A stretch of 34,685 nucleotides of DNA from Thermosipho sp. (in: thermotogales). GTDB taxonomy: Bacteria > Thermotogota > Thermotogae > Thermotogales > Fervidobacteriaceae. This document shows, piece by piece, positions 8,536 to 30,467 of this stretch. The position numbers were made by a program, and so were the translations under genes. Position 1 is the stretch's first letter, and every line of letters starts with the position of its first letter. The stretch spans positions 1-34,685 of the forward strand of contig JASKLO010000016.1 of assembly GCA_030153605.1 (NCBI GenBank), given 5' to 3'. Under the pieces are notes generated by a model that saw only the letters and a list, made by a program, of their open reading frames with translations, did no database searches and was not told the DNA's origin.

Positions 8536-8547
8536 GGGGATGTTGCA

Positions 8548-12155: not shown

Positions 12156-12201
12156 AATTGTGATAAAATTGTTTTGTATTAGAACAAAAGAGGTGATTAA
12201 A

Positions 12202-14952: not shown

Positions 14953-14964
14953 ATTAGTTACTCC

Positions 14965-15927
14965 TCAATTTATTATATAATTATTAATTTTCTTTAATTT
15001 TAGTATAAAATCTTCGGGAATTTCTTTATATTTCTCTTTATAAGCTAGAACAATAGCACCTAAAACAGGATCAAATTCAACTTGCTTAATTATTGGATTG
15101 AGAATTTTTTTATTTAGATATTCTTCAAATGCTTTTCTAACAAAAAGATTTTTTTCTAAAACACTCCCATTATATGTGATTAGAGGATTTATTAATCCCA
15201 ATTTTTTTACACCTGCATAAATAGAAAGCCCTAGTTCTTTTCCGGCATTTTTGAGAATTTTGAGAGCCTTAAAGTCATTTTGGAGAGCAGCTTCGTATGT
15301 TAATTGCGCAACAAATGCTATTTTTTTTCTCCTATCATCTGCAGAATATACAAAATCAATAAAATCATAATGAGTCTTCAAATTTAGACCATTAAACACA
15401 ATTTCTGTTAAAACAGTTTTTCTACTTCTTCCGTCTAATTGTTTAGAAACTTCTCTTAAAGTTTCTAATCCAATATGATAAGCGCTTCCTTCATCTCCAA
15501 TCAGGCTTCCCCAGCCTGTTACCCTTATAGTTTTATCACCTTTTTTTCCAAAAACTATAGCTCCTGTACCTGCAACAATATGAATTCCATCTTTTCCAAG
15601 GGTCCCTGCGGCCCAACCAATTACAACATCATTAACAATTATTCTTGGCCTAATATTAAAGTTAGTTTCTAAGATTTTTGAAACAACTTTTTCGCTATCT
15701 TTGAATTCTCCTATAGCTGGCAATCCAAAGCAGGAGATGACTTCTTTATTTTTAACTTTTTTCAATAGTCCGCTCAAACATTTTTTGAGATTTTCTATAA
15801 ATAATTTTTCCCCATTTTCAAGTAAGTTGGTTGGCCCGGATAATCCTAATCCCAAAAGCTTTCCATCTTCACTAACTAGAACGGCTTTAGTTTTAGTTCC
15901 ACCACCATCAATACCTAAAAATAACAT
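14965..15927 (-). CDS. BadF/BadG/BcrA-type amino-sugar kinase (N-acetylhexosamine kinase)
   Basis: A 320-residue ASKHA-fold kinase. The phosphate-1 motif is LGIDGGGTKTKAVLV (about 4-18), the central ATP motif is HIVAGTGAIVFGKKG (about 116-130) and GWGSLIGDEGSAYHIG follows at about 138-153, the usual N-acetylglucosamine-kinase pattern. It should phosphorylate imported free N-acetylhexosamine at C6, as needed for ABC-type uptake where no phosphotransferase acts. Since this locus otherwise looks like the GalNAc pathway, GalNAc is the likely substrate (AgaK-like role). AAGGAGGAAGT precedes the ATG. It lies between the permeases and the deacetylase. Confidence 0.85.
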   Translation of the reverse strand: MLFLGIDGGGTKTKAVLVSEDGKLLGLGLSGPTNLLENGEKLFIENLKKCLSGLLKKVKNKEVISCFGLPAIGEFKDSEKVVSKILETNFNIRPRIIVNDVVIGWAAGTLGKDGIHIVAGTGAIVFGKKGDKTIRVTGWGSLIGDEGSAYHIGLETLREVSKQLDGRSRKTVLTEIVFNGLNLKTHYDFIDFVYSADDRRKKIAFVAQLTYEAALQNDFKALKILKNAGKELGLSIYAGVKKLGLINPLITYNGSVLEKNLFVRKAFEEYLNKKILNPIIKQVEFDPVLGAIVLAYKEKYKEIPEDFILKLKKINNYIIN

Positions 15928-15952
15928 TTACTTCCTCCTTACGTTGTAAGAG

Positions 15953-16789
15953 TTATTCTTTTAAACCCCCAGCAGTTAAACCTTTAACAATGTATTTCTG
16001 TACAAGAAGAAACATGATAACAGGTATTATTGTTGAAATAAGAATGGCTGCCATTAGTTCATTCCATCTTACAGAGCTTCTACTGAAAAATTGGTATAAT
16101 CCTTGAACAATTGGCATTAATTGATCATTTTTAATAAGTCCCAATGCAAGAATAAATTGTTGGCTCCATCCTGTTATAAAGGCATAAATAAAGACAGCCA
16201 CTAAAGCAGGACTAATCATTGGAATTACAATTCTATAAATTGTAGAATATGTTGTGCATCCATCGATTAAAGCTGCTTCCTCTATATCTTTTGGAATTCC
16301 TTGCATATATGATGTTACCAACCAAGTAGAGAGAGGAATAGTAAAAATAGATCCTGAGAGAATAACTGAGAAATACGTGTTAATAAGCCCAAATTTTCTC
16401 ATAATGACATAAATTGGAACTAATAGCATTATTGGAGCAAACATGTTTGCATAAATTACTATTACCATTAACCCTTTTCTAAGTAGAAATTTAAATCTTG
16501 CCAAAGCATATCCAGCTGGAATTGCAACAAGAAGCGAAATTGTGCTAACTCCTATACCGTATATGAAACTATTTAACAAATATCTTGGCATTCGAGGAAC
16601 AAGTTGAAATGCTTTTAAAAAATTGCTGAATGTAATTTTCTCTGGAAAAAGTGGAGCAGGAGATTCCCAGGGTAATTCTGCCGGCCGTAAAGAAGTTATT
16701 ATCATTTGGTAAATTGGCAAATATAAAAATACTACTATCATAAGCATTAAAATTTGGTATATAATTTTTTTATAAATAGCTTTTTTCAT
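15953..16789 (-). CDS. ABC sugar-transporter permease, MalG type
   Basis: A 278-residue inner-membrane protein with about six membrane helices. The EAA loop EEAALIDGCTTYSTIYRIVIP lies about residues 190-210 and contacts the ATPase. The C-terminal GLTAGGLKE is typical of the MalG branch of carbohydrate-uptake family 1. Its ATG overlaps the stop codon of the partner permease (ATGA), a translational coupling common for such pairs. No ATPase subunit is encoded here, as in many sugar systems that share one MsmX-like ATPase from elsewhere in the genome. Confidence 0.9.
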   Translation of the reverse strand: MKKAIYKKIIYQILMLMIVVFLYLPIYQMIITSLRPAELPWESPAPLFPEKITFSNFLKAFQLVPRMPRYLLNSFIYGIGVSTISLLVAIPAGYALARFKFLLRKGLMVIVIYANMFAPIMLLVPIYVIMRKFGLINTYFSVILSGSIFTIPLSTWLVTSYMQGIPKDIEEAALIDGCTTYSTIYRIVIPMISPALVAVFIYAFITGWSQQFILALGLIKNDQLMPIVQGLYQFFSRSSVRWNELMAAILISTIIPVIMFLLVQKYIVKGLTAGGLKE

Positions 16790-17694
16790 CCTTCAGCTCC
16801 CTTCCCCAGAATTTTTATATAGAATATCGACACAATTGTGACCAGTAAAACTTGTGCAATTGTCATTGCAGAGGCCTTTCCAATTCCACCAAATCTTGTC
16901 ATAAGGAAAGAAACATTATAAATAGCTATTGGCAAAGTTTCCGTTGAATTGAGAGGACCACCTCTGGTTAAAATCCAAATTATATCAAATGAATTAAAGG
17001 TCCACACAAGTGATAAGAGACTAACAGTTAAAATAACGGGTTTTAAAGTAGGTAAGGTAATCTTTGTAAATTTAGTAAAATCTCCAGCACCATCAATTGT
17101 AGCAGCTTCGTAAAGAACTTCAGGTATGTTCTGGAGCCCCGACAATAACATAATCAATACAAAGGGAAGCCCTGCCCAAACATCAACTAAAATTGTCGAG
17201 ATAAAAGCAGTTAGAGGGGTGGAAAAGAAACTAATTGGACTCTTTATTATATGTAATTTTAGTAAAAAAGAATTTACTATTCCAAATTGACCATTGAGCG
17301 TCCATGCCCACATCATAGCACCCATAGCCCAAGGAATAGCCCAAGGAACGACAATCAAAATTCTGTAAATTTTTGAACCCGATAAATGTTTACTGTTTAA
17401 TAATAAACTTCCTCCAAGTCCAATAATGATTTTCAGAGTTACTGAAAGTCCAACCCATAATAACGATCTTCCAAAAGCGGACATAAAATATGACCATTTA
17501 GGATTAAAAAGTTTAAAATTAAACAACCATTTATAGTTTTCAAACCCCACAAATTGTCTTTTAAATGGATTTAGAAAACTCGATTCATAGAAAGAATTTT
17601 CAATTACTTTATATAAAGGATAAAACATAAAAATACCAAAAGCAATAAGCAAAGGAATTATTAAAACGTATGGAACGGTCTTCTTTTTAGTCAT
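16786..17694 (-). CDS. ABC sugar-transporter permease, MalF type
   Basis: A 302-residue protein with six membrane helices. The N-terminal segment VPYVLIIPLLIAFGIFMFYP is typical of the MalF branch, and the EAA loop EAATIDGAGDFTKFTKITLP lies about residues 195-214. It forms the heterodimeric channel with the following permease. GGAGGGATATA precedes the ATG. It is 46 bases behind the binding-protein gene, a gap filled by a strong stem-loop (17715-17734). Confidence 0.9.
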   Translation of the reverse strand: MTKKKTVPYVLIIPLLIAFGIFMFYPLYKVIENSFYESSFLNPFKRQFVGFENYKWLFNFKLFNPKWSYFMSAFGRSLLWVGLSVTLKIIIGLGGSLLLNSKHLSGSKIYRILIVVPWAIPWAMGAMMWAWTLNGQFGIVNSFLLKLHIIKSPISFFSTPLTAFISTILVDVWAGLPFVLIMLLSGLQNIPEVLYEAATIDGAGDFTKFTKITLPTLKPVILTVSLLSLVWTFNSFDIIWILTRGGPLNSTETLPIAIYNVSFLMTRFGGIGKASAMTIAQVLLVTIVSIFYIKILGKGAEG

Positions 17695-17714
17695 TATATC
17701 CCTCCATATAAAAT

Positions 17715-17734
17715 GGGGAGGAGACTTCCTCCCC
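17715..17734 (-). terminator. Intercistronic stem-loop behind the sugar-binding-protein gene
   Basis: GGGGAGGA (17715-17722) and TCCTCCCC (17727-17734) form a perfect 8-bp stem with a 4-base loop. On the minus strand it follows the binding-protein stop codon and is followed by ATTTTAT rather than a long T run. It probably acts as partial terminator or RNA 3'-end stabiliser, giving more binding protein than permease. One arm, GGGGAGGA on the plus strand, reads TCCTCCCC in the transcript and could also hide a nearby ribosome binding site. Confidence 0.7.
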
Positions 17735-17740
17735 TAAAAG

Positions 17741-18955
17741 CTATTTTTGAAGAATTTCAATTACTTTTGCTGCTTGATTTAAAGCAGTCTGTGCGTCTGA
17801 TACACCAAGTAAAACAGAGTGGATAGCATCTAAAACAACTTCTTGAACACCTTCCCAATCTTTTATGTTAACTGCTTCAGGATAGCCATATTTAATTGCA
17901 TCTATGTAAGGTTTCCAATACCATTTTTGAAATTCTTGAAGATCTTTTTCTTTAATCATTGGAGGAACAAATCCAAGTTTTAGATCCCATTCTGCTTGTT
18001 TTTCAAAGCTTGTCATGTATTCCATAAATTTAATAGCAAGTTCTTTATCTTTACATTGACTTGATATTGCAATTGAATCGGTTACTATAACAGTTGAGAA
18101 TGGTTTCGTTGATGATGGACCACCAGGTATCATAAAGAAACCAACATCGATACCCTTTTCTATAGCTTTAAGAGCATTATGAACATGGTCAATATACATA
18201 CCAACTTTACCAGTTTCAAATAATTTGATTAAATCTTCTCTTTTCCATTCAAGAATACCTGGTTGGGCGTACTTTGAAAGTTTCACATAGAAATTTAATG
18301 CTTCTACTGCATTATTGTTGTTTATAGTTACTTTACCATTTTCATCAACAATCCTACCATCGTTTGCATACAGGTATTGTTGGAATTGAGTAACTGTAGA
18401 AACAAATTTTTTACCTGCCATTGCTATACCGTAAATCCCTTTGCTAGGATTATAAATTTTTCGAGCAGCTTCAAGCAATTCATCCCATGTTTTTGGTATT
18501 GGTACATTATTTTCTTCGAATAATTTTTTGTTATAAATAAAAACTTTTGTAGACATAGCTCTTACTATTCCCCAGATTTTTCCTTTATATGTCACTGTGT
18601 CCCATACTGTATCGTAATATAGGGCCTTTTTTTCTGGCGAAACATAATCATCTAAGGGGATAATTGCACCCATCTCTGCTAGAGCAGGAATCCACCGTGA
18701 ACCAATATACATTACATCAGGAGCTGCTCCTGCACCAATTGATGTGATAATCTTATTCCAAAGTTCATCCCAACCTACAAATTCCATTTCGATTTTAACC
18801 CCTGGATTATCTTTTTCAAATTCCTTTGCTATAGCTTCTTGATCTTCAATTGTATAACCTCCACCAATAGGCATGAGTACCCTTAAAACTTTTTCTGCAC
18901 CTAACAATGAGATTGCAAAAAACAGTACCATTAAAACAATAAGAAACTTTTTCAT
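17741..18955 (-). CDS. Extracellular sugar-binding protein of the ABC transporter (family 1)
   Basis: A 404-residue exported protein with signal peptide MKKFLIVLMVLFFAISLLGA and mature start near AEKVLRV. KEFEKDNPGVKIEMEFVGWD is the classical family-1 N-terminal pattern; GAAPDVMYIGSRWIPALAEMG and YKGKIWGIVRAMSTK follow. It captures an oligosaccharide or monosaccharide outside the membrane; the operon points to N-acetylgalactosamine or a GalNAc-containing glycan. I use the ATG at 18955, which AGGAGGTG precedes; a GTG nine bases earlier lies inside that site. It is the third gene of the DeoR-led operon. Confidence 0.9.
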   Translation of the reverse strand: MKKFLIVLMVLFFAISLLGAEKVLRVLMPIGGGYTIEDQEAIAKEFEKDNPGVKIEMEFVGWDELWNKIITSIGAGAAPDVMYIGSRWIPALAEMGAIIPLDDYVSPEKKALYYDTVWDTVTYKGKIWGIVRAMSTKVFIYNKKLFEENNVPIPKTWDELLEAARKIYNPSKGIYGIAMAGKKFVSTVTQFQQYLYANDGRIVDENGKVTINNNNAVEALNFYVKLSKYAQPGILEWKREDLIKLFETGKVGMYIDHVHNALKAIEKGIDVGFFMIPGGPSSTKPFSTVIVTDSIAISSQCKDKELAIKFMEYMTSFEKQAEWDLKLGFVPPMIKEKDLQEFQKWYWKPYIDAIKYGYPEAVNIKDWEGVQEVVLDAIHSVLLGVSDAQTALNQAAKVIEILQK

Positions 18956-18982
18956 AAACCCCACCTCCTTTAGATTGGTGTA

Positions 18983-19957
18983 TTAAAATTTAACTACTTT
19001 GGTTAAATTTCTTGGTTTTTCAACATCAATATTTTTATGATAAGCTAATTTTAAACCGAGTATTTGACCAAAAATCACCTGTAAAAATGCATCTTTTTGA
19101 TCTTTAGAAAGAGTTTTTCTAATAATCACTTTCCCCCCATAGCTTTCAAGTTCATGTTTTAATTTTGTTTCTTCGAATGTTTCGTTTCCATAAATTATCG
19201 CTATTGAATTTTCTGAGAATAAGGATTTTGGTCCGTGACGATAATCAAATGTTGAATATGCTTCAATTGTTGTAAGGGACATTTCTTGAAGTTTTAAAGC
19301 AGATTCTCTTGCAATACCTTCATAAGTACCAACACCTAAAAAAACATAATGATTACCATTTAATAGATCGTTCTTTTCAATTTGAGTAAATGAATCATTA
19401 ATAATAGACTCAGTTTTATCCAAAATTTCTTTATAGGCATTTACATTTTCATTTGCAATTGTATCTGACATAATTTCCAAAAATAATAATATTGAAGAAA
19501 AAGATTTTGTCATGACAATAGATTTCTCATCTATAGGTAGAATATAAGAAAAATTAGCTATCTTTGTCAGTGAACTATCTTTAGAAAGTGTAATACCAAT
19601 AGTTGGTATAGATAATTCTTTCAAAACCTTTCCAGCATAAACGACTTCAGAAGATTCACCAGAACGAGAAATTAAAATAGCAGATTTTTTAATACCCTTC
19701 TTGCCAATGTTGCAATTATCAGCAAACATTATTTCTCCGCCTACTAACGCTTTTGTTTCAATTCCAGTTTTAAGACTAAAGTATTTAGAAGCAGCTATAG
19801 CAAGATAATATGAAGAACCACAACCAACAAAATAAACAATATCTGAATCAACAATAAACTTTGGAATTTTCTGACTTTCAAAAGTTTGTTTGGAAAAACC
19901 AAAAATTTCCTTCAAAACAGTTCTTTGTTCAAAAATTTCTTTTTCAACAAGTGTCAT
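18983..19957 (-). CDS. agaS: AgaS-like SIS-domain ketose/aldose isomerase-deaminase (galactosamine-6-phosphate)
   Basis: A 324-residue protein of two SIS domains, like the isomerase half of GlmS without a glutaminase. It begins LVEKEIFEQRTVLKEI. Domain 1 has YFVGCGSSYYLAI (42-54) and ILISRSGESSEVV (near 94-106). Domain 2 has FLGVGTYEGIARESALKLQEM and STFDYRHGPKSLF, the ring-opening/isomerase segment. AgaS enzymes convert galactosamine 6-phosphate to tagatose 6-phosphate and ammonia. The deacetylase supplies the substrate, and the aldolase and GatZ-type genes across the divergent promoter handle the product. It could instead be a glucosamine-6-phosphate or fructosamine-6-phosphate enzyme; the tagatose genes make AgaS the better call. 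GGAGGGATAAG precedes the ATG. Confidence 0.8.
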   Translation of the reverse strand: MTLVEKEIFEQRTVLKEIFGFSKQTFESQKIPKFIVDSDIVYFVGCGSSYYLAIAASKYFSLKTGIETKALVGGEIMFADNCNIGKKGIKKSAILISRSGESSEVVYAGKVLKELSIPTIGITLSKDSSLTKIANFSYILPIDEKSIVMTKSFSSILLFLEIMSDTIANENVNAYKEILDKTESIINDSFTQIEKNDLLNGNHYVFLGVGTYEGIARESALKLQEMSLTTIEAYSTFDYRHGPKSLFSENSIAIIYGNETFEETKLKHELESYGGKVIIRKTLSKDQKDAFLQVIFGQILGLKLAYHKNIDVEKPRNLTKVVKF

Positions 19958-19967
19958 CTTATCCCTC

Positions 19968-20732
19968 CTAATCTAAATTAATTATTTTTATTCCAGACGT
20001 TCTAAAATTGCTTACTAAATTTTCATCTGCCTTGGTTATTAAAATGTCAATATCTGATATTTCACAAACTTTAAATGGAGCAATCTTCCCAAGTTTGTCT
20101 TCATCAGCTACAACTACAATTTTTGAAGAATTTTTTATTATTGTTGATGCAATATTTCTTTCTTCAAAATCAGAGAATGTTATACCTTTATTTAAATCTA
20201 AGCCATCTACTCCTAAAATATAAACATCGAATTCCATGTTCATAAAAAAATTAATAGTATGACTTCCAATACATTCAAAGGAACCAGGTTTTACAGTTCC
20301 CCCTGAATGTATAAGTTTAAAATTTTTGTTTAAACCAATTATTGCCCATGCAGTTGTGATTGAATTTGTAACAATTGTCAAATCATGAACAGAACTATTT
20401 TCTAAAGCTTTGGCAACATAATAAACAGTTGTACCACCACTCATAGCAATAGTTTGACCATTGTTAATAAGTTCAATGGTTTTTTGAGCTATAGCTTGCT
20501 TTTCAGATTTTCTAATATCAAGCCTTAAAAAAAACGGAACTTCCATAAAAAAGTTTTTTAGAATGGCTCCTCCATGCTTTCTTTCGATCAATCCTTGAGA
20601 TTCTAAGAATTTTAAATCTCTTCGAACAGTTATTTCTGAAATTGAAAACAACTTACTTATTTCTTTAGTAGTAACATGATTTTTTTCTTTTAATAAATTC
20701 ATTATCTTTTTTAATCTTTCCTCTCTTAACAT
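19968..20732 (-). CDS. DeoR-family transcriptional repressor (AgaR-like)
   Basis: A 254-residue regulator. The N-terminal DeoR helix-turn-helix is HVTTKEISKLFSISEITVRR with FLESQGLIERKHGGAIL. The C-terminal sugar-phosphate sensor has MSGGTTVYYVAKAL, VTNSITTAW and ILGVDGLDLNKGIT. I use the ATG at 20732 behind CGAGGTGAAAA; the longer frame begins inside the tandem operator repeats. It is the first gene of the minus-strand operon and lies back to back with the aldolase gene, so it probably represses both arms until a phosphosugar (for example galactosamine or tagatose phosphate) binds. The AgaS start codon is 10 bases beyond its stop codon. Confidence 0.87.
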   Translation of the reverse strand: MLREERLKKIMNLLKEKNHVTTKEISKLFSISEITVRRDLKFLESQGLIERKHGGAILKNFFMEVPFFLRLDIRKSEKQAIAQKTIELINNGQTIAMSGGTTVYYVAKALENSSVHDLTIVTNSITTAWAIIGLNKNFKLIHSGGTVKPGSFECIGSHTINFFMNMEFDVYILGVDGLDLNKGITFSDFEERNIASTIIKNSSKIVVVADEDKLGKIAPFKVCEISDIDILITKADENLVSNFRTSGIKIINLD

Positions 20733-20743
20733 TTTTTCACCTC

Positions 20744-20806
20744 GTTCAAAAACGTTCAAAAACATTCACAATAGTTATTGTATGATAATCGATTGTGATA
20801 AAACAA
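20744..20806 (-). promoter_or_regulatory. Divergent control region: promoter of the DeoR operon with tandem half-sites
   Basis: On the plus strand GTTCAAAAAC occurs at 20744-20753 and 20754-20763, followed by the related ATTCACAAT at 20764-20772: three direct repeats with a 10-bp period, typical of DeoR-family operators. On the minus strand TTGTTT (20801-20806) and TACAAT (20777-20782) make a plausible promoter with 18-bp spacing just upstream of the repeats. An inverted pair CACAAT (20767-20772) and ATTGTG (20791-20796) overlaps it. The plus-strand genes may use TATAAT at 20900-20905, but no -35 box is clear. Confidence 0.55.
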
Positions 20807-20933
20807 ATTTATTTAAAAAGAATTACAGCTGATAATATACAAATAGAGGAAATTAATAGAAAAATCTTTTTGTTTCTAAGTTTTTAAATTCTTAAAAAAT
20901 ATAATAAAATTAAACTAAAGATATGGAGGTGAA

Positions 20934-21881
20934 ATGATGGAGTACTCACCAGGAAAATTTATGGGATTTAGAAGAATATCAAATAACGATGGTATTTTCC
21001 AAATGTTGGCTCTTGATCAAAGACAATCACTTTTTAAATTATTAAAGGAGTATGGATTAGATAGAAAAAAACAGGAAGATGCAATTAAAAAAATTAAAAA
21101 GACCATTTTGAAGACTTTATCACAATATGCAAGTGCTGTTTTAGTTGATGGTGAATATGCCTTTCCTGATTTTCTATCATACATTCATCCTAATACTGGA
21201 ATAATTTTATCTATTGAAAAAAGCGGTTATACAGAAGTAGCAGATGGTAGAGTAAATGAGCTCTTTAGAGAGGATGCTATTGAATTAGCTAAAAAATGGG
21301 GATGTGATGCCATAAAACTTTTAATTTATTGGAACGATGATGCAGATGAAAAAATAAAGAATGCACAAAAAAAGTTTGTAAAAAAAGTTGGAGGACAGGC
21401 GAAAGACTTGGATCTACTTTTTATACTTGAAATTGTAACTTATGGTGTTTCAAAAGGGCAAAAAAAAGCTATTCTTTCAGCAATCAAAAACTTTTCATCA
21501 GAAGGCTATGGGGTTGATTTGTTTAAAATAGAACCCTTTATTGAGAGTGTAAATGCTAGTGAAGTTTTTGAAGCAAGCCTTGGAAAACCATGGGTAGTTT
21601 TAAGTGGCGGTGTTGAAATAAATAGATTTTTACCCATTTTAGAAAACAATGTTCTTTCAGGAGCATCTGGTTTTTTGGTTGGTAGAGTTGTATGGAAAAA
21701 TATAATTAAATATTTTAACAATGAAGAAAAAATGGAATTTTATTTAAAAAATACAGGTTTAAATTATCTTTCTTGGCTTAAAGAAAAAAGCAAATATTCT
21801 TTACCGTGGTATATGACACCTTATTTTGGGGGTTACGAGCAAATTAATATAAGGAGAAGCTTTAAAAATGTGGTTGAATAA
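20934..21881 (+). CDS. lacD: Class I tagatose-1,6-bisphosphate aldolase (LacD family)
   Basis: A 315-residue TIM-barrel aldolase of the LacD family. LALDQRQSLFKLL (25-37) is the signature N-terminal strand. Lys128 in DAIKLLIYW and the likely Schiff-base Lys198 in DLFKIEPF match the LacD active site; LSGGVEINRFLPIL and GFLVGRVVW give the phosphate-binding end. It should split tagatose 1,6-bisphosphate into dihydroxyacetone phosphate and glyceraldehyde 3-phosphate. No tagatose-6-phosphate kinase lies nearby. GGAGGTGA is 4 bases before the first ATG and 7 before the second (20937), so the second may be used. It overlaps the next gene by 14 bases. Confidence 0.87.
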   Translation: MMEYSPGKFMGFRRISNNDGIFQMLALDQRQSLFKLLKEYGLDRKKQEDAIKKIKKTILKTLSQYASAVLVDGEYAFPDFLSYIHPNTGIILSIEKSGYTEVADGRVNELFREDAIELAKKWGCDAIKLLIYWNDDADEKIKNAQKKFVKKVGGQAKDLDLLFILEIVTYGVSKGQKKAILSAIKNFSSEGYGVDLFKIEPFIESVNASEVFEASLGKPWVVLSGGVEINRFLPILENNVLSGASGFLVGRVVWKNIIKYFNNEEKMEFYLKNTGLNYLSWLKEKSKYSLPWYMTPYFGGYEQINIRRSFKNVVE

Positions 21882-23115
21882 ACAATTTTTATCTAAAAGG
21901 GGAATTTTCTCGGTTTGTAGTTCCAACGAATATGTGATAAGAGCATCAATCGAATTTGCAAAAGAGAAAAATGAATATTTATTGCTTGAAGCCACTTGCC
22001 ATCAAGTTAATCAATTTGGAGGTTATACTGGATTTACTCCAGAAAAGTATGTAGAATATATAAAAGATTTGATAAAAAAATACAATTTTCCAGAAGATAA
22101 ATTGCTTTTAGGTGGAGATCACCTGGGCCCTGACCCTTGGAAAGAAATGCCAGCATCTTTAGCCATGGAAAATGCAGAAGAACTTGTTAAGTCTTTTGTA
22201 AAAGCTGGGTTTAGAAAAATTCATTTAGATTGCAGCATGCCACTTGGCAACGATACTAAAAAACTTAATGTCTTAACAATTGCTAAAAGAGAAGCAAGAT
22301 TATACGAAATTGCTGAAAAATATTCCCAGAGTACTAAACTTGTTTATGTAGTAGGTACAGAAGTTCCTGCTGCAGGTGGTGGGGAAGAAGTTACAGATGT
22401 AACTACTCTTGATGAATTGAGAGACTCTCTTGAAAGTTTAGAAAAAGTATTCCAAAATTTTCCAGGAGCATTAGAAAAAATAATTACCATGGTTGTAAGA
22501 TTGGGAATAAGTTTTAACAATTATGAAGTTGATGATTACAATAGTGATAAAACAAAAGATATTTTAAATTACATTAAAAATAAAAGATTATTCATTGAAG
22601 CTCATTCAACTGATTATCAATCAAAAAAAGCATTGAAAGAAATGGTAAGTGACGGAATACGCATTCTTAAAGTTGGACCCGCATTAACTTCTGCATTTCG
22701 AAGAGCAGTATTTTTCTTAACTTTTATAGAAGATGAAATAATTGAAAAAGATAAAAAATCAAACTTGATAAAGAAAATTGTGACTGTTATGAAAAAAATG
22801 CCAAAATATTGGAAGAAGTATTATACAGATTCAAATAAAAGTATTGAAATAATGCTTAAATACAGTTTGCTTGATAGAATAAGATACTATTGGAATGAAC
22901 CTGAAATTAAAGATTCTTTAAATATCCTCTTAAGAAATTTAGAAAATAATATACCAGATGAATTACTGTATCAATTTTTTCCTGAACAATTTGAATTGAT
23001 AAGGTTAGGGATTTTGAAAAACACACCTGAAGAAATTATAAAATACGAAATCAAAAAAGAATTGCAAAAATATTATGAAGCTATTATTGAAAGTTCAGAT
23101 AAGCAAAAATCTTGA
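21868..23115 (+). CDS. GatZ/KbaZ-family protein (tagatose-bisphosphate aldolase Z subunit or tagatose-6-phosphate 4-epimerase)
   Basis: A 415-residue protein of full family length. Signature stretches are EATCHQVNQFGGYTG (41-55) and GGDHLGPDPW (82-91), with HLDCSMPLGND, VVGTEVPAAGGGEEV and FIEAHSTDYQS further on. In enterobacteria the Z subunit stabilises the class II aldolase KbaY/GatY. No Y subunit is present, and the aldolase next door is the unrelated class I type. Some members have been reported to be tagatose-6-phosphate 4-epimerases giving fructose 6-phosphate, which would make a kinase unnecessary here. The ATG overlaps lacD and follows AAGGAGAAG. The frame is intact. Confidence 0.85.
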   Translation: MWLNKQFLSKRGIFSVCSSNEYVIRASIEFAKEKNEYLLLEATCHQVNQFGGYTGFTPEKYVEYIKDLIKKYNFPEDKLLLGGDHLGPDPWKEMPASLAMENAEELVKSFVKAGFRKIHLDCSMPLGNDTKKLNVLTIAKREARLYEIAEKYSQSTKLVYVVGTEVPAAGGGEEVTDVTTLDELRDSLESLEKVFQNFPGALEKIITMVVRLGISFNNYEVDDYNSDKTKDILNYIKNKRLFIEAHSTDYQSKKALKEMVSDGIRILKVGPALTSAFRRAVFFLTFIEDEIIEKDKKSNLIKKIVTVMKKMPKYWKKYYTDSNKSIEIMLKYSLLDRIRYYWNEPEIKDSLNILLRNLENNIPDELLYQFFPEQFELIRLGILKNTPEEIIKYEIKKELQKYYEAIIESSDKQKS

Positions 23116-23144
23116 TTGCCCACGTTATAAGCTTATTTAAATTA

Positions 23145-23187
23145 GGACTGTTTAAAAAATTAAATGTTTTTTATTTATAAACAGTCC
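23145..23187. repeat. 43-bp inverted repeat downstream of the GatZ/KbaZ gene
   Basis: GGACTGTTTA (23145-23154) pairs perfectly with TAAACAGTCC (23178-23187); inner A and T runs extend the stem. No T tract follows, so it is a poor intrinsic terminator, although it could end the transcript of the lacD operon with help. Perfect ends around an AT-rich core also resemble a tiny mobile-element relic, but no target duplication was noted. Confidence 0.5.
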
Positions 23188-23400
23188 AAATACAATGTAA
23201 TATTATTGTCATATTCAATACAAGAACAAAACTACAGGAAAATCTGAGGTTCTTTGTTTCTCAAAACATTTAAAAAGGAGTGCTAAAATAGTATAAATAT
23301 ATTTCCTCAACTTTTGCTAGCCTAAAGTTTTTCATACTTCACGCTCGAAATGATTAAAATAAAAGAAAAACAAAATTCCTTAAATCATTTCCATCAAATT

Positions 23401-23517
23401 CTATAAATTTTTTTGGAATACTGAATATGCTTCATTTTGTACTCTTCTTTGAAAAAAGCTTTCTAGTAATTTACAAAATTTTTGAGAGTCTTTCTTCCAG
23501 TGTTTGAGAAAATGATT
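23401..23517 (-). pseudogene. Short remnant of an unknown gene in the 23.1-23.7 kb gap
   Basis: The gap of over 500 bases holds one protein-like stretch. On the minus strand, after a TGA, NHFLKHWKKDSQKFCKLL, then FFQRRVQNEAYSVFQKNL, ends with TAG at 23401-23403. An overlapping frame gives SFSQTLEERLSKIL. The basic, aromatic composition recalls the end of a transposase, but I cannot name a family. There is no start codon or ribosome binding site. The rest of the gap shows nothing coding. Confidence 0.3.
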
Positions 23518-23680
23518 TCATTACATCAATTTTTAATCTTTATCAAAGAAAATTTGAATATAAAGAAGATAATTATTCCGCTACCAATATGCAAAATATG
23601 GTATTACATTTGAAAAAAATTAAAAAATTATTTGAATAAGCCAAATAACAGCGTTTTATTCAACAATTTAAGTAAATTTT

Positions 23681-24661
23681 TTATTTCAAGGTTTCCATAG
23701 CAGCTTTAAGCATTTTATCGTGTGATTTTGTCCCTGATTTGTATAATTTACTATAAAAACTTAAATATTTTTCAGATTCAAAATTTGAAAGATTATAGTT
23801 AAGTTCTTCTCCAAGTATTTTGGTGTTAAAAAACTGCGCAAGACATTCGTATGCTTTATAAAAACGCTGGAATTTTTTCGTTTTATCATCCATAGTAGTA
23901 TTCGTATTTAAAAACATCTTTTCCATAAATGTTTTTACACTGTCAAACATAATGTGAGTTCCAACTTCATGACTTATAAAATCTATTGTCAATTCTATAT
24001 CATTTTCTGAATAAAAAACATTTCTATCATATCCAAGAGAATTAGCATTTGGCCCATTTTTTATTGCAGAAACAAGAACTATTTGATATTCAGATACTTT
24101 AAAATCAATTCCCGTTAACTTTTCCCAGCACTCTATAAGATTTAATTTTCTAAGTTTTTTGTTTATCTCTTTTGCTACTTTTTCTAACCTTTCTTTTTCT
24201 TTTGGCCACACCTCTTTTTCATATGTATGAAAATTTTCTATGTAAATCTTCCCAAGTTTTTCAATAAGAGATACTTTATCTTTTATTTTTTCAAACCACA
24301 CTGAATTAATTTCAGGCACCCAAAGCATCCTTCTTTTTATATAATCATGATACTTTTTAATAAAAGGCATTTCATCTTTAATTAGAGCATCTAATAATAG
24401 ATTAAAATACTCTTTAATTTTCTCTTGAGAATCAAGGTTTAAATATGCTGGAAAGAAAATTATAGGATCTACAAGCTCAGATGCATTTCCATTTTGAAAA
24501 CTAAGAAGCTTTTTATGCCTTCTAAGAAAATCTAAATCTTTTCTTTTTAAAGTATTTGAGTATTTTTCAGTATAATCACTGTAAAAATTCACACCAGATG
24601 CTGCAAGAATATGAAAAACATAATTTGTCCCTTTATCAACTACAGCAACTACCTGTTTCAC
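23681..24661 (-). CDS. Putative zinc metalloprotease with an HExxxH motif
   Basis: This 326-residue protein has no signal peptide. The motif ISHEVGTHI places His231, Glu232 and His236 as HExxxH, one residue longer than the common HExxH; this spacing is known from dipeptidyl peptidase III and from the DUF1704/MATCAP peptidases, where HE(I/V)GTH is characteristic. Glu272 in YKAYECLAQFF is a likely third zinc ligand. The N-terminal 170 residues are mostly charged helix. The overall family is not recognised. It is the last gene of the defence-like operon, 51 bases behind the truncated SIR2 gene, with AAAGGAGTGAGT before the ATG. It may act as a toxic or activating protease there. Confidence 0.6.
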   Translation of the reverse strand: MKQVVAVVDKGTNYVFHILAASGVNFYSDYTEKYSNTLKRKDLDFLRRHKKLLSFQNGNASELVDPIIFFPAYLNLDSQEKIKEYFNLLLDALIKDEMPFIKKYHDYIKRRMLWVPEINSVWFEKIKDKVSLIEKLGKIYIENFHTYEKEVWPKEKERLEKVAKEINKKLRKLNLIECWEKLTGIDFKVSEYQIVLVSAIKNGPNANSLGYDRNVFYSENDIELTIDFISHEVGTHIMFDSVKTFMEKMFLNTNTTMDDKTKKFQRFYKAYECLAQFFNTKILGEELNYNLSNFESEKYLSFYSKLYKSGTKSHDKMLKAAMETLK

Positions 24662-24992: not shown

Positions 24993-26357
24993 TCACCCTA
25001 TAATCTTAATTTGATTTAAAAAACTTTCAAAATTACATTTTTTATAATCAAAAACCTCTATTCTATTTCCATTATCTCTGCTTAAAATCTGATATCCTGA
25101 ATTATTCCCTATATCTTCACCTGTATAGATAAAGATTTTTAATTTTTTATTAAATCTCAAAGCTGTTTGTAATATATTCAAAATATGTGCATCATCTCTA
25201 TTCAAACCAAAACCGACTATAATACATCTTTCTGCACTTTTTAGTGCTTCATATGTTTTATAATATCTTTCTATCATCTCAACAGAAATAATTGGTTTTA
25301 ACAAAGATTGAGGTACAAAGTTTGGTATAATTTTTTTATCTTTAATATTATAAACTTCTTCCTCATTTATTATTTTTCTATCTTCAAGAATCATATATTC
25401 CCCTACTTTACCATGGATATGATTAACATAAATTTCACCAAGAGTTTTTTTCAAAAAATTCGTATAGTTCAAGTTTACAAAATAATGATTATCATGCTTC
25501 AAACTCTTTACCATTTCATAATAACTTTTACTATTTTTATAACTTTTCTCATATTGATCTTCAAGTTCTCGAATTGTAAAATCCATTGCCAACATAAAAT
25601 GTAAATATCTTAAAACCTTCGCTGGACTAGTATTTTTCAAATCACAATTTAAAATTACATCATATAACTCATCAAATATAACTGTATAATCAAATATTTT
25701 CAAAATATAGTTTTCATAAATTAATTCTTTTACACCAGAAAAGTTTTCAAAATTTTTTATTTTTTCTTCAAGAATCCTTTTTACGTAATCAACTATAACA
25801 TGTTCTGGTTCGTAATATATAGGAACTTCTAAATCTTCAAATAATTCGTTTAAATTTGATCCTTCAAGTCCTAATTTTTCTTTTAATTGATTTCGAAACA
25901 AATTTATCATATTTTCTTTCTGATATTTCGCTATTTCGCTTCCACCTATGTTTAACAACAAAGCTATAAAAAATTTTTTCGCTTTTTTATCATCACTTTC
26001 AAAAACGTTGCGCAAATGATTTTCAACTATTAATATTTGTTGACCATTACCTAAATTAAAAGGAACTTTTTTTCCAGATTCTGGAAATATATCAATATCC
26101 ATTTTCTCTATACCACTTTTAAGTATAGGATTTATAGATGATTTCCATTCAAAAAAATAATCATTTCCTTTTTTATAAATTTGTCTTTTGAAATTGCTGT
26201 AAATGAACTTATATATATTATTTTTCTTACTCTTTATTTTTTTCCTCACTTTTCCTAAATTAGAAAAAATCTTTATTACAAATTCGTTCCCTAAAGGTAC
26301 TTTTGGGTAAAAATTGTTATCAGCCCCCGCTCCAAAAATAAAAACATTTTTGAACAT
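24993..26357 (-). CDS. SIR2-like domain protein, probable NAD-consuming defence effector
   Basis: A 454-residue protein. The N-terminus FKNVFIFGAGADNNFYPKVP carries the SIR2 glycine motif (GAGAD at 9-13, usually GAGAS). NLNYTNF (295-301) is the equivalent of the LNYD catalytic Asn strand, VNHIHGKVG (about 312-320) holds the catalytic His, and VGFGLNRDDAHILNIL closes the Rossmann core. Between them lies a long helical insert. Bacterial SIR2 proteins of this type deplete NAD on phage infection. I use the ATG at 26357 behind AAGGAGGAAAG; an upstream ATG lies inside the dNTPase gene. The dNTPase stop codon is 22 bases upstream. Confidence 0.72.
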   Translation of the reverse strand: MFKNVFIFGAGADNNFYPKVPLGNEFVIKIFSNLGKVRKKIKSKKNNIYKFIYSNFKRQIYKKGNDYFFEWKSSINPILKSGIEKMDIDIFPESGKKVPFNLGNGQQILIVENHLRNVFESDDKKAKKFFIALLLNIGGSEIAKYQKENMINLFRNQLKEKLGLEGSNLNELFEDLEVPIYYEPEHVIVDYVKRILEEKIKNFENFSGVKELIYENYILKIFDYTVIFDELYDVILNCDLKNTSPAKVLRYLHFMLAMDFTIRELEDQYEKSYKNSKSYYEMVKSLKHDNHYFVNLNYTNFLKKTLGEIYVNHIHGKVGEYMILEDRKIINEEEVYNIKDKKIIPNFVPQSLLKPIISVEMIERYYKTYEALKSAERCIIVGFGLNRDDAHILNILQTALRFNKKLKIFIYTGEDIGNNSGYQILSRDNGNRIEVFDYKKCNFESFLNQIKIIG

Positions 26358-26379
26358 AAAGCTTTCCTCCTTACTTGCT

Positions 26380-27480
26380 TTAATAAGCTGTTCCATAAAG
26401 AATTTCATACTGTTTTAATGCATACTTATCTGTCATTCCTGCGATATAATCTGTTATAGTCCTCATTAAAATAACCTTATATTCATATACTGTTATCTTT
26501 TTTTCTAAAAATTTTGCAAATACATCAAACTTTTTGTCAACTTTCTCTTCTTTTAAAATTCTTTTGTGATATCTTTCAATTTCATTTCTAATAAAACTTG
26601 GAATTATATCTTCTTGCTTTTTCTTTATTTCTAACAGTAATCTCAAATTTCTCAAAAATGTTTTTATCGTTTTATCAGGCATTTGCTGCGGATTTGTAAA
26701 ATAAGCTTGAAACAACCTTCTAATAATATATTTCCCTTTTCCATCCATCATTTGAACAGATTGAGAATTCAAAACCACATTTTTAAGAAACTCTTGAAAC
26801 TTTTTATCCTTTTTTTCAAACTCCTTCGAAAAACCTGTATTTTTTTCTATAAGTTGTTCCCTACAAAATTCTTTTAAATAATTACTCTTGACATTTTTCC
26901 TAAATTCGTTATGACAAATTTCCTCCCTTTCATTTAATTCCATAATCAAATTTTCTAAACTTTTTATATATTCTGAAACATACATGTCAACTATAAGCTT
27001 TGAATAATTTGTTATTAACTCACTTTTAGTTAAATTTTCAGATTCTATACGATCAATAATTTTTCCATACATTTTTTTCGTTTTTAACTCTGTTTCAAAA
27101 ATTTCTTTTATTTTTTCTAGTAAATCTTTCTTTGGAATTAATTCAAGTTCAATAGCATCTTCTATATCATGGTGCCTTTGAGCTATTTCATCGGCATCTT
27201 TTACAACTAATGCTTCAATAGTCCAATTTTTGTTACTCACTTTTTTTAAATATCTATCATAAAAACCAAGTTTTGAACCATCTTTATACTCTAAAGAAGA
27301 ATGATTGACAATTCCCCATAAAGTTTTTTTAGATATATCTAAACCATATGTTCCTTTGTAATTCATTGTTAAATCTTTTAAAATTCTTAATGCTTGCAAG
27401 TTATGCTTAAAACCTTTATCTTTTTCCTCCATTTTATCCAATTTTATTAACTTCTCATTTACTGAATCTTCTCCATTCAT
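26380..27480 (-). CDS. C-terminal part of a frameshifted HD-domain dNTP triphosphohydrolase (dGTPase family)
   Basis: This 366-codon frame continues the dNTPase begun at 27809. Sense coding in this frame already starts before the ATG, as [10 protein letters not shown], which is the normal continuation of HDIGHAPFG in the family. It contains GFKHNLQALRILKDL, Asp97 in VVKDADEIAQRHHDIEDAIE (the last metal ligand) and the long helical C-terminus. With the 5' part it would make about 475 residues, in the normal range. A single missing base near 27511 separates the two, so as given neither half should be active. Related enzymes deplete dNTPs to stop phage. Confidence 0.75.
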   Translation of the reverse strand: MNGEDSVNEKLIKLDKMEEKDKGFKHNLQALRILKDLTMNYKGTYGLDISKKTLWGIVNHSSLEYKDGSKLGFYDRYLKKVSNKNWTIEALVVKDADEIAQRHHDIEDAIELELIPKKDLLEKIKEIFETELKTKKMYGKIIDRIESENLTKSELITNYSKLIVDMYVSEYIKSLENLIMELNEREEICHNEFRKNVKSNYLKEFCREQLIEKNTGFSKEFEKKDKKFQEFLKNVVLNSQSVQMMDGKGKYIIRRLFQAYFTNPQQMPDKTIKTFLRNLRLLLEIKKKQEDIIPSFIRNEIERYHKRILKEEKVDKKFDVFAKFLEKKITVYEYKVILMRTITDYIAGMTDKYALKQYEILYGTAY

Positions 27481-27488
27481 TATTGAAT

Positions 27489-27809
27489 TTAAAACTCTCT
27501 CTCCAGCATGCCAAAAGGGGCATGACCTATATCATGCTCCAGGGCTATTGCTTCAGTTAAAGTTGTATTTAATCCAAAATAGCTAGAAATAGTATTAGCA
27601 ATTTGATTAACTTCGAGAGTATGAGTTAATCTTGTCCTAATATGGTCATCAGTCCCAACAAAAAAGACTTGCGTTTTTCCACTTAATCTTCTAAAAGGTT
27701 TTGAATATAAAATTCGATCTCGATCTCTTTGAAACTCATTCCTGATATCCTCATCATTAAAATTTTCTGGTTTTGCTGCAAACTCATTTATACCCCTATG
27801 CATAAACAT
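27489..27809 (-). CDS. N-terminal part of the frameshifted HD-domain dNTP triphosphohydrolase
   Basis: The 106-codon frame carries the first half of the HD active site. [20 protein letters not shown] and [20 protein letters not shown] (His63) are the dGTPase N-terminal signature, and [13 protein letters not shown] has His92-Asp93. It then runs out of frame as MLEREF and stops. Reading one base back gives [16 protein letters not shown], the expected family sequence, so a GGG codon has probably become GG at about 27511-27512. AAAGGGGGAAT precedes the ATG. The DUF3800-like gene lies 90 bases upstream. Confidence 0.78.
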
Positions 27810-27899
27810 TTATTCCCCCTTTTTCCCCTTTCACAAGTTTTTTCAAGTTAACATCATAATACCAGATACTTTATAAAATAATTGCAAGAAAATTTTCCT

Positions 27900-28787
27900 C
27901 TAAAACAATTTCTGTTGTCCAAAAATTCTTGGCTTTCTTTTATAGAAAAGGCTTTCAATTGGTATATTTTCATTGTATGTATTTTTAGGAAAAAAAGATA
28001 TATCAAAATTTTTTAAATAAGCTTTATAATAAGAAGCTTTATTATAAGTAATTTGTTGAAGTATGTCATCTATTTTTAAAACCATTTTTTTCCTAGCTTG
28101 CAACTTTTTTGCTTTTGCCTTTTCATCATCAAATGCAAAAGAAACTACTCCTAAAACTAAATCAATAAATTCTATTAAATAAGAATATTCTTTATAGACT
28201 TTTTCCTTAGAAGGATTAGAATTTACAAATTTTATTTCCATATCCTCTATTTGCAAACTTTCATCTTCTTCAAACGCTTTTTTTAGTTGCCTCTTAAAAT
28301 ATGGTTGTTCGTTTTCAAGTACTCCTTCAGTATCATGAAATACTTTTCGTATTACATAATTAAAGTCTTTGTTTTTAAAAAAATGACTCCAAGAACTTTT
28401 TATTATTGTTCTAAAGAAACGGCCATATGAACGATAATACTTTTCCATTTCTTTTTTTGCTCCAAAACAAGAATAATCAAGTTTTTCCATGTCTATACCT
28501 AAAATATTTACAAAAAACTTACATTCAGGATGACTCAAAAAGCCATCACAAAGAAAATCAAGCCATTTCATAGCTACGTTATATTTTCCACCATTAATCT
28601 TCACATTTTCATATTTCATTTCTTTCACTTTTTCCTCTTCCTGAGTTCTTTTAAAAAAACTTATAATTTCTTCTTCAAATTCTTCTTTTACAATCAGCAT
28701 TCCAATATAATTCCATCTGTTATTTACCTTCTTTTTTTCATCAACAAACATATTTACATAAATATCTTTCTTTAAATCAAAAAACAT
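27900..28787 (-). CDS. DUF3800-like protein (predicted RNase H-like fold)
   Basis: A 295-residue protein. The N-terminus DIYVNMFVDEKKKVNNRWNY resembles the 'ifiDEsGd' opening of DUF3800; KYENVKINGGKYNVAMKWLDF fits its second element, and YLIEFIDLVLGVVSFAFDDE fits the 'qlaDliaGav' helix. VFHDTEGVLENEQPYF gives further acidic residues. DUF3800 proteins are common in defence islands and mobile DNA; their activity is unknown, with an RNase H-like nuclease fold predicted. The match is moderate. The ATG lies 4 bases behind the stop codon of the extended RES frame, indicating coupling to that gene. Confidence 0.5.
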   Translation of the reverse strand: MFFDLKKDIYVNMFVDEKKKVNNRWNYIGMLIVKEEFEEEIISFFKRTQEEEKVKEMKYENVKINGGKYNVAMKWLDFLCDGFLSHPECKFFVNILGIDMEKLDYSCFGAKKEMEKYYRSYGRFFRTIIKSSWSHFFKNKDFNYVIRKVFHDTEGVLENEQPYFKRQLKKAFEEDESLQIEDMEIKFVNSNPSKEKVYKEYSYLIEFIDLVLGVVSFAFDDEKAKAKKLQARKKMVLKIDDILQQITYNKASYYKAYLKNFDISFFPKNTYNENIPIESLFYKRKPRIFGQQKLF

Positions 28788-28791
28788 TAAA

Positions 28792-28920
28792 TCACTCTCC
28801 GAAATTTAAGGATTTTTCTTCAAACTCATAGCCAACTTTAGTTATTTCCACGTTAAATGAATTTTTTAACTCTAAATAATTACCAAAATATTCAATATAT
28901 CTATTTCTTTTATCTTCCGG
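28792..28920 (-). pseudogene. Out-of-frame 3' continuation of the RES-domain gene
   Basis: The main RES frame stops soon after YVLFFG as AGR-stop. Removing one G from the run GGGG (28921-28924) lets translation continue as PEDKRNRYIEYFGNYLEL, then KNSFNVEITKVGYEF, to TGA at 28792-28794. That leaves only four bases before the next ATG. The added 40 or so residues are protein-like and close an otherwise long gap, so this is probably the original C-terminus lost to a one-base change. Confidence 0.55.
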
Positions 28921-30025
28921 CCCCAAAAAATAAAACATAATTATATTTCCCATTAATTAGAGAACTTCCATACTTTATCCCTTTATATCCAAGCTTTCTT
29001 ATATACTCAGATAATACTTGTGTAGGTATATACTCTATTTCTTTATTATCATTTACCCCCATAGGTTTACTAATTTCTTCAGAAAATTTGTTTATAAAAT
29101 ACCCTACAAGCATTCTTGTGTCATGGTCATAACTTTTACAAAAAGTACTTTTTACAGGATTACCTGTTAAATCTAGTATTTCTATATTCTTCTTTAACTC
29201 AAAAACTCCAACAATAACATTATCTTTAATTTGTGGAACAACTTCTTCAATACATGTATCTATATCACCTGACAAGTACATATATGAAATACCTGCTGGG
29301 CTAAACCTGTTACTTTTAGTTTTTTCTATCGGCGCTGGCCCTATATCTTTTGGCTGTTCTAATTTTTTTAATGAACCATTATAAACTCTTGCTCTAAACA
29401 ATCTTTCGCCTTTTAAAAGTGTACTTTTCATCTTTTTAAAAATATTTTCAAGTTTTCTCAGTAATTCCTCCCTTTTATTATCATTTGTTACATCAAAAAA
29501 TCTAAAATTATATCTAGTAATCTCCTTAAATTCGTCCCATGAATAAAATAATTTTTCCTCGTTTTCTTTATTACCAGAATAGTATAATTCATCGATAAGC
29601 ATCCAATTTGGACTTTCAATATCAGAATATAAATCACCATCTCCTCTGACTATTTCTCGAAAACTTGGTTTAATAGAATTCATTATTTTTTGTAAAAAAT
29701 TTTTTGCAGTCTTTTCATCTAAATCATCCGAAAATATTTCTTCAACATAATAGAGTGCTTCAAACATTGATTGCCCTAAGTCATTACCCGTAACGGAATC
29801 ACAGTATCTTTTTTCTTCAGGATGCCAAAACCCTTCATTTTCTAATGTTTCATATGCTCTTCTAAACCCTTCAATAATAAAATCAGCTACTAAGTCAAAA
29901 CTTACAACAAAGACATTATCTCTGCCACATACGTCGCATTTTCCCTTTTTTCCTTCTTGTATTATAAAGTTTCTAATATATTCGTCTTTAAAACATTCTG
30001 CGCAACAATGCTCTTTGTCTTCCAT
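28910..30025 (-). CDS. RES-domain protein with N-terminal Cys cluster, predicted NAD-degrading
   Basis: A 371-residue protein. The N-terminus has a zinc-ribbon-like cluster (Cys7, Cys8, Cys11, then Cys30-x2-Cys33). Residues 45-200 are helical, as in HEPN-type RES N-terminal domains. The RES domain follows: ERLFRARVY (Arg211/213), RFSPAGISYMYLS (240-252), Glu260-261 and YGSSLING (Ser354-355), the Arg-Glu-Ser residues that name the family. Known RES toxins degrade NAD. Here the domain is fused to its own N-terminal module and leads an operon with SIR2 and dNTPase genes, so a role as infection-triggered NADase is likely. A frameshift seems to have removed the last 40 residues. The ATG follows GGATGGGTG. 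Confidence 0.75.
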   Translation of the reverse strand: MEDKEHCCAECFKDEYIRNFIIQEGKKGKCDVCGRDNVFVVSFDLVADFIIEGFRRAYETLENEGFWHPEEKRYCDSVTGNDLGQSMFEALYYVEEIFSDDLDEKTAKNFLQKIMNSIKPSFREIVRGDGDLYSDIESPNWMLIDELYYSGNKENEEKLFYSWDEFKEITRYNFRFFDVTNDNKREELLRKLENIFKKMKSTLLKGERLFRARVYNGSLKKLEQPKDIGPAPIEKTKSNRFSPAGISYMYLSGDIDTCIEEVVPQIKDNVIVGVFELKKNIEILDLTGNPVKSTFCKSYDHDTRMLVGYFINKFSEEISKPMGVNDNKEIEYIPTQVLSEYIRKLGYKGIKYGSSLINGKYNYVLFFGAGR

Positions 30026-30380: not shown

Positions 30381-30443
30381 TTTGGTCAGCGCATTGACCA
30401 AATCGGGCCTTATTTGGTCAATATACTGACTATATGTTATAAT
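30381..30443 (+). promoter_or_regulatory. Promoter with two palindromic operators of the ATPase at 30468
   Basis: TTTGGTCA-N6-TGACCAAA at 30381-30402 is a perfect inverted repeat. A second copy at 30413-30434 keeps the left arm and the 6-base centre but has 6 of 8 bases in the right arm. The centres are 32 bp apart. TTGGTC (30414-30419) and TATAAT (30438-30443), 18 bases apart, give a plausible promoter that lies within the second palindrome, so binding would block the polymerase. Confidence 0.65.
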
Positions 30444-30467
30444 ATGATTTATCCAGGAGGTGAAAAT

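Follow-up and report, generated by a model that had tools for sequence, protein, structure and literature searches.

Described GatZ-type proteins and tagatose routes

The best described relatives of the protein discussed here are GatZ and KbaZ (AgaZ) of Escherichia coli. According to PMC11907403, both are fructose-6-phosphate/tagatose-6-phosphate (T6P) 4-epimerases. Deletion of gatZ in E. coli abolishes tagatose formation, which is restored by gatZ or kbaZ in combination with hxpA; it is restored neither by fbaA, kbaY or gatY with hxpA nor by plasmid-borne gatZ alone. In the model of E. coli GatZ given there, His88, His257 and Glu171 are the metal ligands, Asp87 is the catalytic residue, and Glu44, Lys279 and Cys20 are differences from the class II aldolases. 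The same source cites epimerase activity for enzymes from Agrobacterium, Sinorhizobium and Caldilinea, and it also cites an older assignment of GatZ and KbaZ as aldolase chaperones. A third label is found in papers on N-acetylgalactosamine (GalNAc), where AgaZ is given as the T6P kinase or as a candidate for it (PMC4694137, PMC12118421). The structure entries 2fiq and 3txv are titled T6P kinase as well. Since the activity of E. coli GatZ and KbaZ has been published, the epimerase activity of the family is not new; what is new in this analysis is its placing in a pathway and the exchangeable endings of that pathway.

According to PMC5583593, a single GalNAc route has been described, which runs via T6P to trioses. 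Where AgaZ is missing, lacC or pfk has been proposed for T6P phosphorylation (PMC4694137). No description of galactosamine (GalN) or GalNAc catabolism through a T6P 4-epimerase was found among the open-licence papers searched. A LacD-type class I aldolase takes part in the LacC-LacD tagatose pathway and the streptococcal GalNAc route, and Lys126 and Glu164 are catalytic in the Streptococcus pyogenes enzyme (PMC9007349).

Layout of the amino-sugar cluster

The window, i.e. the whole stretch of 34,685 nucleotides that was analysed, is contig C55 of a Thermosipho genome of 1.69 Mb, which is assembled in 56 contigs and is 98.1% complete. Its amino-sugar cluster (13894-23115) consists of two divergent arms. 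The leftward arm, on the minus strand, encodes in order a DeoR-family regulator (19968-20765; PF00455, PF08220), the true start of which may be a few codons further in, a SIS-domain protein proposed to be a deaminase/isomerase for galactosamine 6-phosphate (18983-19957; PF01380), an ABC transporter sugar-binding protein (17741-18964; PF01547, 178 bits), two ABC permeases (16786-17694 and 15953-16789; PF00528), a BadF/NagK-type protein proposed to be a hexosamine kinase (14965-15927; PF01869, 141 bits; NagK, 109 bits, below the cut-off), and the N-acetylhexosamine-6-phosphate deacetylase NagA (13894-14952; TIGR00221, 243 bits, cut-off 225.65). The rightward arm, on the plus strand, encodes a LacD-type class I aldolase, proposed to act on tagatose 1,6-bisphosphate (20934-21881), followed by the GatZ/KbaZ-family protein (21868-23115). 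The start of gatZ lies inside the LacD ORF, giving an overlap of 14 nt, and a ribosome-binding-like AAGGAGAAG at 21851 is found 5' of the GatZ ATG. The overlap suggests that the two genes share one transcript.

The original prediction, that two tagatose-type proteins lie together with neither a Y subunit nor a T6P kinase beside them, agrees with this layout: the cluster contains no class II aldolase gene, and no PfkB or T6P kinase gene, within 13894-23115.

A divergent control region (20766-20933) separates the DeoR and LacD genes. A DeoR operator was sought by comparing the spaces between genes in the window with those in 14 loci. GATC-type direct repeats about 10 bp apart were seen by eye in several sister loci and were unclear in the window, and the comparison established no operator. 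Promoter and terminator scans of positions 20700-23700 gave no more matches than shuffled sequences. An inverted repeat, GGACTGTTTA...TAAACAGTCC, is located at 23145-23187, directly 3' of gatZ, and does not appear in the list from the terminator scan.

The cluster probably serves galactosamine/N-acetylgalactosamine catabolism, with GatZ as a stand-alone, metal-dependent T6P 4-epimerase. We infer every reaction of this route, the identity of the sugar and of the metal, and what LacD does in it. GalNAc or GalN would be imported by the ABC transporter and converted to the 6-phosphate by the BadF-type kinase, the acetyl group would be removed by NagA, and the SIS protein would deaminate and isomerise galactosamine 6-phosphate to T6P. 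GatZ would then open the C3-C4 bond of T6P and close it again with C4 inverted, in a metal-assisted retro-aldol/aldol reaction such as that modelled in PMC11907403. The resulting fructose 6-phosphate would enter glycolysis with no dedicated kinase. LacD would be a second outlet, probably splitting tagatose 1,6-bisphosphate made from T6P by a general phosphofructokinase-type enzyme, and might act as a parallel drain or for clean-up.

The genetic setting differs from those described. The E. coli GatZ and KbaZ genes are each accompanied by the gene of a class II Y subunit and a PTS, whereas in the window the Y gene is missing, the importer is of the ABC type and LacD is a class I enzyme. The solo enzymes of Agrobacterium, Sinorhizobium and Caldilinea are also of the fructose-6-phosphate/T6P 4-epimerase type, but the Agrobacterium case feeds from galactitol (both via PMC11907403), whereas the route proposed for the window feeds from an amino sugar via a SIS deaminase.

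The GatZ protein

The GatZ ORF encodes 415 amino acids and matches PF08013 (GatZ_KbaZ-like) over residues 9-405 (E 1.4e-139; 466 bits, cut-off 26.7). This is the only family in its Pfam listing, which does not include the UxaE/tagatose 4-epimerase family; the predicted fold is similar to that of the latter. The score against the TIGR02810 equivalog, a non-catalytic aldolase subunit, is 428.1 bits and lies below the cut-off of 568.8. E. coli GatZ and KbaZ belong to the same family over the full length, with 41-42% identity. In the alignment, C17, E41, D84, H85, E165, H246 and K268 of the window protein correspond to C20, E44, D87, H88, E171, H257 and K279 of E. coli GatZ, so that all seven proposed active-site residues are kept. 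Among 90 family members these residues are alike in the 34 that have a Y gene near, the 48 that do not and the 8 that could not be judged on cut contigs, the exception being a change of Glu171 to Asp in one member with Y and one without; the conservation of Asp87, His88 and Lys279 partly reflects how the members were chosen, because these residues lie inside the patterns of the relatives search. A quick tree of the family has long branches, that of the window protein among them.

The AlphaFold model of the window protein (pLDDT 92.5) is closest to the solved structures of E. coli GatZ (2fiq, Z 52.5) and its Sinorhizobium meliloti counterpart (3txv, Z 50.6). The next matches are Thermotogota tagatose 4-epimerase/UxaE entries (Z 25-26; rmsd 3.1-3.5 over about 320 residues), which have a like fold but only 12% identity, and class II aldolases at 24.3 and below, the two groups lying close together. 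No kinase-like entry is present in the list of structural matches.

These comparisons bear on the label of AgaZ as T6P kinase, used in PMC4694137 and PMC12118421 and in the titles of 2fiq and 3txv. A GatZ kinase feeding LacD in the same transcript would fill the step missing before LacD. It is nevertheless extremely unlikely, because the protein folds as a barrel of the class II aldolase/epimerase kind and has nothing kinase-like among its listed matches, the E. coli members epimerise (PMC11907403), and the product would be left without an aldolase to use it in most GatZ clusters.

LacD and candidate kinases in the source genome

The LacD ORF matches the DeoC/LacD family (PF01791, 79 bits) and the NCBIfam model PRK12858, 'tagatose 1,6-diphosphate aldolase' (226.4 bits, cut-off 184), but with 98.2 bits it is below the cut-off of the LacD equivalog TIGR01232 (432.2). 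In the alignment to Staphylococcus aureus LacD (3myp), D27, Q28, R29, K125, E163, K205, S249 and R278 are kept, most of which we take to be functional positions of LacD. The window shares a class I aldolase with the LacC-LacD and streptococcal routes, but it differs from them in having no LacC over the cut-off in its genome, a LacD of the PRK12858 subfamily well below the LacD equivalog cut-off, and an added GatZ.

The source genome has one GatZ gene and one class II aldolase, which is an Fba equivalog (TIGR01859, 382 bits, cut-off 343). No KbaY/GatY (TIGR01858) over the curated cut-off was found in the genome at its 98.1% completeness; the best score, 230.6 bits against 443.55, is that of the Fba-type gene. 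There are six PfkB genes, two of them 1-PFK-like and neither of these in an amino-sugar locus, and three PFK genes. LacC (TIGR01231) over the cut-off was also absent from the genome, the best score being 144.9 against 409.55, at C33, outside any amino-sugar cluster. The two 1-PFK-like genes and the three PFK genes are candidates that might phosphorylate T6P.

Exchangeable endings in the Thermotogota

The comparison covered 103 genomes of the phylum. GatZ is present in 9 of them and LacD in 17 (distant in G004 and partial in G102). Both occur in five, namely the source genome, G008, G019, G086 and G096 (Fisher p = 0.006, uncorrected for relatedness), and 12 of the 17 LacD-bearing genomes lack GatZ. 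The set includes three more genomes of the genus, and none of them has GatZ. KbaY/GatY over the cut-off was found neither in the source genome nor in the other eight GatZ-bearing genomes.

The neighbourhoods of the SIS gene were examined at 42 loci and the window, with the gene itself present in 37 of the 43. In eight clusters, the window, L026 and L029-L034, GatZ lies within 9 kb of it; in L033 and L034 the contig ends inside gatZ. None of these eight has a Y or PfkB gene, and two have LacD (L032 and the window). No LacD is near GatZ in L029, L030, L031, L033 and L034, of which the last two are contig-cut and L034 belongs to a genome, G096, with a LacD elsewhere. LacD adjoins the SIS gene at 12 loci, always without PfkB, and eight of these (L172, L174, L176-L181) have no GatZ near. 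In G008 (L182 with L027) a single strand carries genes for SIS, BadF, LacD, DeoR, a Gfo/Idh protein, transporter proteins, a GH114 protein and GatZ. A third ending is seen in G047 (L192:2762-8990), where SIS-BadF-DeoR is accompanied by a 1-PFK-like PfkB and a class II aldolase of the GatY-like type, GatZ being absent. Another 20 of the 37 SIS loci show no such ending within reach: 18 are without GatZ, LacD or Y plus PfkB, four of these having NagA, and two are on short contigs. The ABC binding protein of the window is 63-80% identical to those of the GatZ-only and several LacD-only clusters. The simplest reading of these gene sets is one sugar pathway with exchangeable endings, which would be GatZ, LacD, or PfkB with GatY.

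The original prediction gave LacD a side branch, a role for which there is no support over that of a parallel outlet. Eight Thermotogota clusters end with LacD and lack GatZ, hence LacD can be a main ending; it looks like an interchangeable ending rather than a side branch. It is possible, if doubtful, that LacD is the main ending in the window as well, with a general kinase (PFK or the 1-PFK-like enzyme at C33) making tagatose 1,6-bisphosphate and GatZ only equilibrating spare T6P with fructose 6-phosphate. The same eight clusters, which are also without PfkB, imply that LacD can complete the route together with a kinase encoded outside the cluster; candidate kinases are present in the source genome, and lacC or pfk has been put forward for this step where AgaZ is missing (PMC4694137). 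However, five GatZ clusters have no LacD near, with the reservations given above for L033 and L034, the cluster has no linked kinase, and no kinase of the genome exceeds the LacC cut-off.

The epimerase role, in which T6P would flow straight to fructose 6-phosphate, is the part of the original prediction that is well supported. It draws on the conserved residues, the activity reported for the E. coli enzymes GatZ and KbaZ, the GatZ-only clusters that lack Y, LacD and PfkB, and a source genome with no KbaY or LacC over the cut-off; for the window protein itself the role is a predicted one. The likeness of its predicted fold to the tagatose 4-epimerase/UxaE entries, the GH114 genes in two GatZ clusters and the 13 genomes with AgaS and GatZ but no class II aldolase match, both described below, also speak for it. 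Weighing against it are the retention beside GatZ of a LacD that a finished epimerase route does not need, the two 1-PFK-like and three PFK genes that might act on T6P, the score of GatZ below the TIGR02810 cut-off, and the lack of GatZ in the three other genomes of the genus.

The SIS protein and the identity of the sugar

The original prediction took T6P to be the product of AgaS. This had to be abandoned, because the SIS protein scores 60 bits against AgaS (TIGR02815), far below the cut-off of 529.2, and its best matches are GlmS (120 bits), GlmD (119 bits) and NagB-II. A 43% identical homologue in G089 (L193:4710-9519) lies in the same DeoR-SIS-BadF set together with a PIG-L deacetylase and a GH4 enzyme, both recognised by eye, a chitobiose-like set that likely serves a chitobiose route. 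Four other homologues (L194-L196, L203) occur with NagA and without a tagatose-type gene. A SIS protein that is not AgaS, with a homologue in a chitobiose-like cluster, weighs against a galactosamine route and means that the sugar could be a glucosamine form. In the SIS tree the GatZ- or LacD-linked proteins do not form one clade and six label changes are needed; the tree fails to separate the types and thus does not settle the substrate.

A cluster for a glucosamine sugar would have the SIS protein forming fructose 6-phosphate directly, while GatZ and LacD, controlled by the same regulator, would handle tagatose or a sugar like galactitol. The best matches of the SIS protein, to GlmS and GlmD, fit this, as does the equivalog assignment of NagA to N-acetylglucosamine-6-phosphate deacetylase. 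L028 also fits, since there the SIS gene is missing and GatZ is accompanied by PfkB, LacD, NagA and a sugar-binding regulator. Such a division is unlikely, because many genomes have the set of SIS, BadF, DeoR and transporter genes together with GatZ or LacD, a GH114 gene occurs in two GatZ clusters, and no galactitol or tagatose uptake gene is found among the families of the window cluster.

GH114 is a family of endo-α-1,4-galactosaminidases (PMC12054363). Its genes lie inside the GatZ clusters of G019 (L026:13542-15530) and G008 (L027:12535-14073), with PF03537 scores of 72 and 55 bits (cut-off 27), and suggest that polygalactosamine may serve as food. The window has NagA, which most sister clusters lack, and galactosamine rather than GalNAc may therefore be the common substrate. 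The sugar, on this gene content, is likely of the galactosamine type. Between the GatZ and GH114 genes of G008, a 664-residue protein (L027:10535-12529) has a weak Melibiase match of 43 bits.

The source genome has a second ABC operon (G000:C6, L037:272-4378) with another SIS protein, which is NagB-II-like (161 bits) and perhaps belongs to a glucosamine-type route. Gfo/Idh/MocA oxidoreductase genes recur in the clusters (L030:7818-9080, L026:12238-13518, L034:1589-2842 and others), and also lie close to aga genes in Citrobacter werkmanii (L061) and Serratia (L092). The Gfo/Idh protein was considered as a possible GH109 α-N-acetylgalactosaminidase and compared with solved structures. The comparison listed oxidoreductase-type entries, and the protein was therefore not used as evidence for the sugar.

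GatZ loci in other bacteria

A single-sequence search of genome contigs gave no relatives, whereas a search with an alignment (A1) gave 583, of which the best 80 were analysed; this choice is biased to the closest sequences and is rich in Enterobacterales and Lysobacteraceae. Among these best 80 of the 583, a Y gene lies within 8 kb on the same strand in 32 named GatZ loci, is absent from this range in 41, and the contig is cut in 7. The lack of a Y subunit, real at the window locus, is thus not peculiar to it, being shared by 48 of these 80 loci if the seven on cut contigs are included. Judged by gene neighbourhood, GatZ without Y is usual outside the Enterobacterales. In the GatZ tree the Y label needs six changes, and it is found mostly in the Enterobacterales.

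AgaS is present in 28 of the 41 Y-less loci from this best-80 sample, and in 24 of the 28 neither LacD nor PfkB is near. In three of the 28 (L083, L108, L114) a GatY gene lies on the opposite strand at a distance of about 6.8 kb. After these three were left out, the genomes of 44 of the 45 remaining Y-less loci (all but L065) were searched for KbaY/GatY, which was found over the cut-off elsewhere in 7. No class II aldolase match was obtained in 15 of these 44 genomes, still within the best 80 of 583. AgaS lies beside GatZ in 13 of the 15 (seven Stenotrophomonas, one Lysobacter, two proteobacterial MAGs, two Acidobacteriaceae and one Bowmanella). Of these 13 genomes, two, both Acidobacteriaceae, have a LacD-like gene, and none has LacC over the cut-off. 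In the 11 genomes with AgaS and GatZ and with neither a class II aldolase match nor LacD, it is hard to see GatZ as acting as a chaperone for Y or as feeding any known tagatose-bisphosphate aldolase, unless the assembly is missing the part with that gene.

It is very unlikely that GatZ is a non-catalytic subunit or chaperone, of LacD or of an Fba-type class II aldolase, in the manner of the older E. coli annotation. That historic assignment (cited in PMC11907403), the overlap of the LacD and GatZ ORFs and the class II aldolase of the source genome would be in keeping with such a role. Against it, the presence or absence of Y makes no difference to the conservation of the active-site residues, GatZ is found without LacD, 12 of the 17 genomes with LacD have no GatZ, and there are the 15 genomes described above.

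The chances are about even that the proposed stand-alone epimerase of the window exemplifies a wider rule, namely that in bacteria a T6P 4-epimerase giving fructose 6-phosphate is a common ending of GalN/GalNAc catabolism, without a T6P kinase or a tagatose-bisphosphate aldolase. On this view most of the family would have been mislabelled as 'AgaZ kinase' or 'aldolase chaperone', and an ending by kinase and aldolase would be a special case, added in the Enterobacterales (KbaY) and some Thermotogota (LacD). If so, the standard GalNAc map, from T6P via tagatose 1,6-bisphosphate to trioses, would be incomplete, genomes with a supposed T6P kinase gap would have a complete route, and the widespread solo GatZ would gain a physiological role in amino-sugar use. 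Enzymes of this type are of interest for tagatose production, and the result would also point to members that are likely heat-stable.

In five loci of Anaerolineae/Chloroflexi (L059, L066, L100, L107, L116) GatZ, a LacD-like protein and PfkB are encoded in one neighbourhood, which could represent a route of tagatose kinase and epimerase with LacD.

Other genes in the window

A sugar-acid cluster at 2705-8955 contains an RpiR-type regulator, a DHDPS-like aldolase, a KDG-kinase-like PfkB and, judged by eye, a tripartite tricarboxylate transporter. Six ORFs (612-1985, 10696-11265, 12160-13371, 30414-31844, 31957-33252 and 33542-34615), one of them short, appear by eye to encode P-loop ATPases of the archaeal-type ATPase/DUF4143 kind. 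Consecutive ORFs on the minus strand at 24993-30025, among which a SIR2-like, a short HD/dGTPase-like, a DUF3800-like and a RES-like protein are recognised by eye, perhaps form a defence or toxin-antitoxin island.
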